From NCBI RefSeq assembly GCF_021917145.1, contig NC_061063.1, positions 9,131,102 through 9,195,101 on the forward strand: 64,000 bases of DNA. The letters run 5' to 3'. Below are positions 40,301 to 43,300 of the stretch, in pieces. This stretch comes from Hypomesus transpacificus (taxonomy: Eukaryota; Chordata; Actinopteri; Osmeriformes; Osmeridae). The translations under genes were made by a program, and so were the position numbers. Numbering within the stretch: the stretch's first letter is position 1; every line of letters begins with the position of its first letter. The notes under the pieces are model-generated. The model saw only the letters and a program-made list of their open reading frames with translations, was not told the origin of the DNA and ran no database searches.

Positions 40301-43300
40301 TGTCCTCCTCTGCTCTGTCCTCCTCCTCTCTGCTCTGTCCTCCTCCTCTCTGCTCTGTCCTCCTCTCTGCTCTGTCCTCCTCCTCTCTGCTCTGTCCTCC
40401 TCCTCTATGCTCTGTCCTCCTCCTCTCTGCTCCGTCCTCCTCTCTGCTCTATCCTCCTCTCTGCTCCTCCTCTCTGCTCTGTCCTCCTCCTCTCTGCTCT
40501 GTCCTCCTCCTCTCTGCTTAGTCCTCCTCCTCTCTTCTCTGTCCTCCTCCTCTCTGCTCTGTCCTCCTCCTCTCTGCTCTGTCCTCCTCCTCTCTGCTCT
40601 GTCCTCCTCTCTGCTCCTCCTCTCTGCTCCTCCTCTCTGCTCTGTCCTCCTCCTCTCTGCTCTGTCCTCCTCTCTGCTCTGTCCTCCTCCTCTCTGCTCT
40701 GTTCCTCTCGACCGTCAGCCTCTCCGCAGCTTTGTGTGTTCTGGGAGACTTTCTCAGGTGGGATGGGCGGAGCATAAGATGGAGCGGAGTACAGATTGAG
40801 GTAGAAGTGTCAGAATGAATGACAGTCGAGAGGGTCGTTAGATTAACGAACCATAATGGAAGCGTCATCACAGCTTATGAGAAGAGCCTGTGACCCAGGT
40901 TCATTTCTCTAGTTGATGAAACTGCCGTAAAAGTGCTGTCCAAGCTCTCCTGGGCTAGCTCACCTCGACACGCTGGCTCAAGAGGAGGGAAGAGCGAATC
41001 CGGGAGGAGAGGCGGATCCGTGGAACATTACCATCCATCAATGTGTCGGCTGTCCTCCTGGTCACCGCACATCCATTCCTTGGACTGAATGGAGGGATTG
41101 TCTTCTGAAGCGCAGGATGAAGGAAAAATCATTCTGTTTATCTGTCCCTCCGGCTCAGGAGAGCCCCCCCAAAAAGTCAGAGGTCGTTCTCTAATGATGT
41201 TTAGACTCTCTGGTCCTGATGTTTCGCTTGGCTGTGCAGAGACGAGGACGGGAGGATGTCCTCCGCTGCCGGATGTCACGGCATCCAGGCGTCCCGTGTC
41301 GCTGTGCGTTACCGTCACACTCAGACATGCCTACAGCCGCTCAAACAACCTACATATTCGCCAAGCATTTGAAACTGGGTCAATAACATACGTGGGTTGT
41401 TTATACAACACATTTGGCGTTATGTATTGGATATGTATCTTTGTATATTTTGTCACTTCAGGGACTGTTCCTTTGGTTTTATTAGTCTAGGTGAAACAAA
41501 TCAAGTGCGCCCAAAGTTTTGCACTCCATGGGCATTGCTAGTCATGAATCACGTCTGTGTGCTTTATAGAAGGTGCTCGGGGTGTATGAGTACGTTTTGG
41601 GTCGCTAAGCTAAGGTGCATTTGTTTTCTCTCCCCCCTTCAGGTGACGTTCCGTACGAGGATCTACCACTGTAACATCAACAGCCAGGGAGTCATCTGTC
41701 TGGACATCCTGAAGGACAACTGGAGCCCGGCACTCACCATCTCCAAGGTGCTGCTGTCCATCTGCTCCCTCCTCACAGACTGCAACCCTGGTAAGACTCA
41801 GACGACAACCCTGGTAGTAACCACACACACACACAGACTACAACCCTGGTAGTAACCACACATAGACTGTGACCCTGGTAGTAACCACACGTACACACAG
41901 ACTACAACCCTGGTAGTAACCACACACACACACAGACTACAACCCTGGTAGTAACCACACATACACACAGACAACAACCCTGGTAGTAACCACACATACA
42001 CACAGACAACAACCCTGGTAGTAACCACACATACAGACTGCGACCCTGGTAGTAACCACACGTACACACAGACTACAACCCTGGTAGTAACCACACACAC
42101 AGACTACAACCCTGGTAGTAACCATACATACACACAAACTACAACCCTGGTAGTAACCACTCATATAGACTGCGACCCTGGTAAGACTGACTTACACACA
42201 CACTACCTGCATCCTCAGTAAAACAACCTTAGATACACACACTAAGTGGCCTATGTTAGAGATTGTGTAGTTAGTAAAATGACAATGATTGCTGTGCAAA
42301 CTTTTCACCTGTGCGGATGACAATGTTGACAGTCAGTGTAGCTTGTTTGACCCTGACACCTTCCTTTCTGTCATAAGATCCATAACACCCCAGCAAACCC
42401 TGTTTGTTCACTGGAACCTGTTAGATTGGATTTGTAGAAAAAAAGCCATTGCCATCGAAAATACCAGGAAGCTAATTAGTCCCATTCCCTCACAATCATC
42501 AGGGGTTCAGAGACTCCCCTTCCTTACAACCCCCCCCCCCACACCCCCGTCTGTCAGGTCACATTGAGTGGCTACAATCATTGCATAAACGGCCAAGTTC
42601 CTTAAAATACAGCTCTGTTTGAGTGCTCCTCAGGCTCCCAGATGCGATTAATGTCTTCTCATCCAGCGTCCAAGTGCGGCACACCGCCGAGCAGGATGGA
42701 TGTGGTAAAAGCCTCACTGACAGCAGCCACAGGTTCAACCACCTTGTCCAGTAGTTGTACGTAGGTAGGTACGTACGTAGTACAGTCCAGTAGTTGTACC
42801 CGCACACTACAAAGCAACTTGGAGGGAGAGACGAAAAGAATGATATTAGAGCGCGGCATTGAAGGAAAGTGAGAGTAACACAAACCAAACGGGGAACCGA
42901 TAAGAATAGGCGATTGAGGGAGAGTGTGTGGGAGAGAGAGAGACAGGGAGAGTGGGAGAGCGGAGAGCGCACAGCTCTCTGCCGACCTGTAATGGAAGCT
43001 TGTTTTCTCTCTGTGGAGACGCAGCTTTGATAGACGACCAAGCTGAGATCCTCTCGCTGGGAAATGATTTTCTTCTTTTTTGTGTGTGTGTATTTTGTTG
43101 ATGTTGTGTGTCTGAACATGAGCCCCATATTAGCCATAAGCGATATCCAAGAAATCAGTATATTTTCATCTGAATACAAAATGGGCACAGAATGAACCCC
43201 TCTGTTTTATATTCTGTCTTCAGCAGAGGGTGTGCATGACCGTAGAGCTGATTCTAAAACGCCCCCCCTCCCACACCCGTCAGAACATGTAATCCAGGCA

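Follow-up and report, generated by a model that had tools for sequence, protein, structure and literature searches.

A minisatellite grown from the exon 5 splice junction and shared by the neighbouring genes ube2e2 and ube2e1

Can a coding splice junction seed a tandem repeat in the intron that follows it, and what would such a repeat do to the splicing of its gene? The question is raised by intron 5 of ube2e2, where a sequence-only reading had seen twelve decoy donors behind the true donor of exon 5 and had proposed that the junction itself gave rise to them. The gene lies in the window (the whole 64,000-nucleotide stretch of DNA analysed here), which carries two ubiquitin-conjugating enzyme genes on the + strand, ube2e2 and ube2e1, whose joined reading frames are intact and encode 205 and 193 amino acids, respectively. 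Both products contain a UQ_con domain (Pfam), and their best PDB matches are the human UBE2E2 chain (E2 E2) for ube2e2 and a chain named E2 E1 for ube2e1. The joined coding sequence of ube2e2 runs from the first coding exon (19391..19578) through exons 3 (21541..21591), 4 (39182..39314) and 5 (41643..41790; 148 nt) to exon 6, the last coding exon (44166..44263), and its intact frame bears out the acceptor that had been placed before 44166. The exons of ube2e1 are found at 48114..48265 (first coding exon), 48536..48586 (exon 3), 53317..53449 (exon 4), 54056..54203 (exon 5) and 54524..54621 (exon 6). A nkiras1-like gene on the - strand was recognised as three matched pieces within 55783-56987, and the order ube2e2-ube2e1-nkiras1 is presumably that of human chromosome 3 and of vertebrates. 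The window also holds an inverted repeat (59044-59297 against 59584-59832; 86% identity over 254 nt by self-BLAST), perhaps a mobile element.

The array in intron 5 of ube2e2 and its exon origin

There are 13 CTG|GTA sites in ube2e2, the first being the true donor at 41790 (CTG|GTAAGACT) and the other 12 lying at 41813-42180, within an array of exon 5/intron 5 junction copies at 41791..42190 on the + strand; successive spacings are 23, 35, 29, 35, 35, 35, 35, 31, 35, 31, 35 and 31 bp. TRF reports the repeat at 41799-42160 with a period of 35, 10.7 copies and a score of 493, while a row with period 66 scores 509. The pattern ACCCTGGTARNAMY occurs 17 times in the window (13 times in ube2e2 and 4 times in a copy of the array in ube2e1, described below) against 0.02 expected. 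As a control, 980 segments of 400 nt, allowed to overlap, were drawn at random from the window: none contains a match of at least 14/18 to the last 18 bases of exon 5, whereas the 400 nt past the true donor contain 12. Counts so far above the control exclude a chance origin of the array, and the twelve copies of the sequence-only reading are borne out by the sites, by TRF and by the pattern count alike.

Every copy contains a piece of the exon: in all 12, 14–16 of the 18 positions before the GT agree with the end of exon 5. The exon 5 junction itself reads GACTGCAACCCTG|GTAAGACT, whereas the commonest unit is GACTACAACCCTG|GTAGTAAC, which departs from exon 5 by a single exonic base and by its donor. 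The repeat unit had been rightly described as spanning the junction, but its commonest form is not the exon's own. The exon piece encodes TDCNP, which we take to be common to human UBE2E1, UBE2E2 and UBE2E3; this identifies the exon as the parent and the array as the copy, and supports the proposal that the coding junction seeded the minisatellite. Following CTGGTA, 11 of the 12 copies continue with GTAAC and the last with AGACT, as at the true donor. The weak GTAGTAAC copies have their last exon-like bases at 41813-42149 and the terminal copy at 42180; the donor GTAAGACT of the latter (42181..42188) completes a 9-mer identical to that of the true donor, as had been claimed, and in both arrays GTAAGACT is confined to the true donor and the last copy.

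The inner units (41813-42160 and, in ube2e1, 54226-54302) share a core, TGGTAGTAACCA, which forms a small inverted repeat and is invariant in 14/14 of them, whereas 11 of the 18 other unit columns vary (p 6e-4, for a core picked after alignment and units that are not independent). This is a hint of selection on the core. As a structural element, the inner-core hairpin TGGT-AGTA-ACCA was rejected: with 4 bp and -2.0 kcal/mol it is too weak. The RNA of the ube2e2 array is in fact less structured than 100/100 shuffles (z +3.84), and CACA reaches a density of 9.3 per 100 nt in this array and of 6.6 in that of ube2e1, whereas the remainder of ube2e2 intron 5 has 0.8. Since hnRNP L binds CA repeats, both properties would suit a CA-rich landing site at which hnRNP L-type proteins modulate the exon 5 donor, the donor copies being incidental. 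Such binding is purely putative here, however, and growth of the microsatellite type commonly leaves CA-rich tails behind, so that we regard this explanation as decidedly unlikely. Other minisatellites in ube2e2 introns (20225-20493, with 45-bp units, and 40303-40707, with 20-bp units) lie away from mapped exon edges (TRF).

A second array and gene conversion between the paralogs

The sequence-only reading had made no mention of a second array, which follows exon 5 of ube2e1 (exon and array together at 54056-54329). It occupies 54204..54329 on the + strand and consists of three weak copies and a terminal GTAAGACT, with the last exon-like base at 54321. Its spacings of 23, 35, 29 and 31 bp equal the first three and the last steps of the ube2e2 array, although it has 4 copies rather than 12. 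Exon 5 differs between the genes at 0/148 bases and the following 100 bases at 4; self-BLAST aligns exon 5 and the first three copies without gaps at 98.4% over 252 bp, and this ungapped identity stops inside the array, about 100 nt past the exon.

Synonymous differences between ube2e2 and ube2e1 amount to 2/65.3 in exons 4 and 5 and to 17.2/39.5 in the other exon parts (Fisher p 3.7e-7), these comparison parts being the short exon stretches that align without gaps. Outside exons 4–5, dS is 0.55 in the first coding exon (final 8 codons), 2.6 in exon 3 and 0.39 in exon 6. Exon 4 of ube2e2 with its short intron flanks (39132-39337) is 94.7% identical to the exon 4 region of ube2e1, the flanks differing at 7/42 and 4/25 bases, and self-BLAST (dust on, E up to 1e-6) shows three regions of similarity between the two genes and no more: exon 4 plus its short flanks, exon 5 plus the array, and exon 6. 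Because exons 4 and 5 are nearly without synonymous differences while the other exons have diverged, we conclude from these comparisons that gene conversion moved the array between the old paralogs. An mRNA copy is rejected as the conversion donor, since the similarity around exon 4 enters the introns and the exon 5 tract spans the intronic array. That both arrays share one seed exon would also be expected if they had arisen independently, or if a recent block duplication had made both. The former is contradicted by the unit order and spacing common to the two arrays, and the latter by the confinement of the self-BLAST matches and by the divergence of exon 3 and the first exon, which leaves this alternative extremely improbable. 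A literature search of partial coverage returned no paper joining UBE2E1, UBE2E2 and gene conversion.

The same assembly contains a second tandem pair of a ube2e2-like and a ube2e1-like gene, on the - strand of contig C2 (C2:13971078-13982182), again with intact joined frames. Here the neighbours differ from one another at 3/133 bases of exon 4 and 2/148 of exon 5, and from the window exons at 15–17 bases of exon 4 and 12 of exon 5. In exons 4 and 5, the informative sites support grouping by cluster in 24 cases and by gene, as orthology would have it, in 0; elsewhere 5 group by cluster, 8 by gene and 2 are crossed (p 3e-5 without the crossed sites), a grouping that rests on four genes of one genome and in which the orthology signal outside exons 4–5 is weak (8 vs 5). 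The C2 exons 4–5 have, on this comparison, been homogenised separately from those of the window pair, and we conclude that the catalytic core has undergone concerted evolution in two clusters. Conversion is thus indicated both by the local excess of identity and by the grouping of sites by cluster over gene, with contrast exons that are short and weakly resolving. Exon 6 may be partly converted too: it is fairly similar in the window pair (11 of 98 nt differ), and the four-gene comparison gives 10 differences between these neighbours, fewer than the 14 and 16 that separate presumed orthologues.

Both C2 exon 5 donors are GTAAGATTTT. TRF, covering both introns 5 at a score of at least 40, found no array after C2 exon 5, and comparison of C2 with the window array gave just 8–12-bp matches (E 1.6 or worse). 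Since exons 4 and 5 of C2 were homogenised without an array, the array need not drive conversion, and as a necessary driver it is rejected. The end of the ungapped identity within the array, about 100 nt on, is what one might see if the minisatellite were a recombination initiator driving exon 5 conversion, but exon 4 of the window pair was homogenised with no adjoining array, as were both C2 exons, and we consider such a role very improbable. The comparison of the two clusters indicates instead that, in the window, homogenisation of the exons took the array along. A search for nkiras1 in the 39 kb around the C2 pair gave no match, so that whole-genome duplication as the source of this pair is a conjecture. 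The 39 matches listed in a genome search for ube2e comprise 12 that correspond to exons of these four genes and 27 that do not exceed 64 bits; no clear fifth gene (e.g. ube2e3) appears among these listed matches, whose counts are lower bounds.

The array unit appears to be peculiar to these two genes within the 437-Mb assembly, whose size and second ube2e pair would suit a fish. All 13 matches to the unit at up to 2 mismatches fall in the two arrays (10 in ube2e2 and 3 in ube2e1; reversed control 0), as do all 12 exact matches to the core (9 and 3; the reversed sequence matches once per strand), counts that are lower bounds. The unit had 0 matches in phage, viral-contig and prokaryote-contig collections, which are uninformative on related fish. 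As to where the array was born, the stretch past the terminal donor of ube2e2 is similar to the tail of the unit (1/2000 shuffles as good), which favours ube2e2 over ube2e1 (951/2000), but the GTAAGACTCAG of the true donors agrees with what ube2e1 has at its terminal donor and so weighs the other way.

Donor strength and predicted splicing

All copies retain the GT (12/12 in ube2e2 and 4/4 in ube2e1), but a strong donor is present in only 1/12 and 1/4, respectively. By an approximate donor matrix, the score of the true and terminal donors is 5.26, which places them in the top 0.4% of the 4031 GT sites that the window has on its + strand, whereas the 11 inner ube2e2 copies, which carry +4G and +5T, score -1.38 (top 17.4%), or 6.6 bits below the true donor. 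The gap is smaller by U1 pairing energy, at -8.0 kcal/mol for the true and terminal donors and -6.0 kcal/mol for the inner copies. The description of the site as 13 near-identical U1 targets was therefore overstated. By this second measure, the inner copies are nevertheless no weaker than the real donor of the ube2e2 first coding exon (matrix -0.17, U1 energy -5.3). With 11 of the 12 donors degraded and the last identical to the true donor over the 9-mer, it is the terminal copy that could be a serious and credible splicing competitor within the array. Strong donor-like 9-mers also occur outside it, namely CAGGTGAGA at 54345 in intron 5 of ube2e1 (6.61 by the same matrix, above the true donor) and ACGGTAAGG at 43344 in intron 5 of ube2e2 (5.3, equal to the true donor), so that the 9-mer alone is no proof of use. 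Just past the ube2e1 terminal donor, at 54330-54350, acceptor-like and donor-like sequences stand back to back (TTTTGCTTTCAG|GTGAGA).

Use of the decoys had been predicted to add in-frame stops. This holds within the extension for 10/12 ube2e2 copies, although the TAG is itself the 21st added codon and follows 20 added residues. A stop at least 60 nt upstream of a junction is in the range for decay, and 9 of those 10 copies would place it there; for copy +87 it would lie 25 nt before the junction, and copies +23 and +58 would terminate in the last exon. Of the four ube2e1 copies, two would terminate in the last exon and +87 would again have its stop 25 nt upstream. Splicing from the terminal donors would add 390 nt in ube2e2 or 118 nt in ube2e1 together with a premature stop, 328 nt or 56 nt upstream of the new junction, respectively. 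These stop positions, and a terminal 9-mer equal to the true donor in both genes, are compatible with regulated poison splicing, in which the terminal donor, and perhaps the inner copies, would be used at a set rate and the decayed transcripts would tune ube2e1 and ube2e2. We think this unlikely, given that 11/12 copies have degraded donors, that the C2 pair manages without an array and that amphioxus repeats of a similar kind are reported apparently not to disturb splicing (PMC3087553 and excerpts of PMC3902484). Still more specific, and distinctly unlikely, is a poison switch spread by conversion, whereby both genes would produce mRNA with a stop from the terminal donor, and the inner donors and CA tails would set its distance and reach; were this so, array copy number would tune both ube2e2 and ube2e1.

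We consider it likely that the array is instead a neutral minisatellite, formed by a boundary duplication that expanded into the intron and was shared by interlocus conversion, and that the first donor is the one used. The equality of the terminal 9-mer with the true donor counts against this explanation. On the neutral reading, one ube2e gene would have undergone a tandem duplication at its exon 5/intron 5 boundary that expanded into the intron, and the degraded donor (+4G, +5T) would have spread among the inner units by array homogenisation, with the two edge copies retaining GTAAGACT. Interlocus conversion between the tandem neighbours would then have copied exon 5 and the start of the array from one of the genes to the other, after which the copy numbers would have drifted apart to 12 and 4. 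The first donor is most likely the one at which splicing takes place, the array being transcribed and then removed as intron, presumably without consequence. Two accounts of the weak inner donors both fit: a single GTAGTAAC founder may have multiplied fortuitously, or multiplication may have been open only to units whose donor was disabled. The latter would amount to a filter acting next to a coding exon, where harmless multiplication is limited to disabled-donor units. In either case the locus offers, within one genome and with internal controls, a coding splice junction that seeds a minisatellite and a conversion that moves it between old paralogs; it also provides a natural contrast for tandem donor copies, with genes that have 12 and 4 and two C2 sister genes that have none.

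Relation to known exon-edge minisatellites

A minisatellite with multiple splice donors in a transcript is reportedly the subject of Turri 1995 (Nucleic Acids Res 23:1854), going by its title, and we take it to be that of IFI6 (6-16). Like the IFI6 type, the ube2e minisatellite supplies repeated donors; unlike it, 11/12 of the ube2e2 copies are weak and their use is hypothetical. Canestro 2002 is said to be a source for the amphioxus minisatellites known as mirages.

Mirages span exon edges, as in Adh3 and the globins BflGb6 and BflGb9, and their authors suggest that new introns may derive from arrays of this kind (PMC3087553). According to PMC3087553, RT-PCR and the data on Adh3 point to undisturbed regular splicing, and excerpts of PMC3902484 likewise describe the Adh and TnC mirages as apparently without effect on splicing, adding TnC and imperfect PGBD5 duplications as further cases. 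In both systems, the tandem units hold exon and intron sequence of one boundary, and splice signals are present in many but not all units (PMC3087553), the ube2e arrays having a GT in all and a strong donor in the last. The edge units of mirages escape homogenisation (PMC3087553), and we count this in favour of the neutral explanation because the same pattern is seen here, with GTAAGACT at both edges. Copy number varies between haplotypes in amphioxus (6 vs 3 for BflGb6; PMC3087553) and between paralogs, in one assembly, for ube2e. Unlike mirages, the ube2e arrays have units of 29–35 bp in a genome with vertebrate-type gene order, all their inner donors are degraded in the same way, and two converted paralogs have the array in common. 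By its structural features, then, we would class the ube2e array as a further mirage-type minisatellite, and so probably as a mostly known, harmless kind of repeat, whose special trait is that two converted paralogs share it.

Human exon-edge repeats have been tied to cryptic splice sites and new introns in genes of recent primate-specific segmental duplications (excerpts of PMC2812944), and neutrality is therefore not to be assumed in every case. As far as these excerpts go, the human repeats resemble the ube2e array in unit length (about 30 bp), in differing from one paralog to another and, in some cases, in lying at exon–intron boundaries, but they belong to recent duplicates, some with new introns, whereas ube2e2 and ube2e1 are old paralogs that share their array by conversion.
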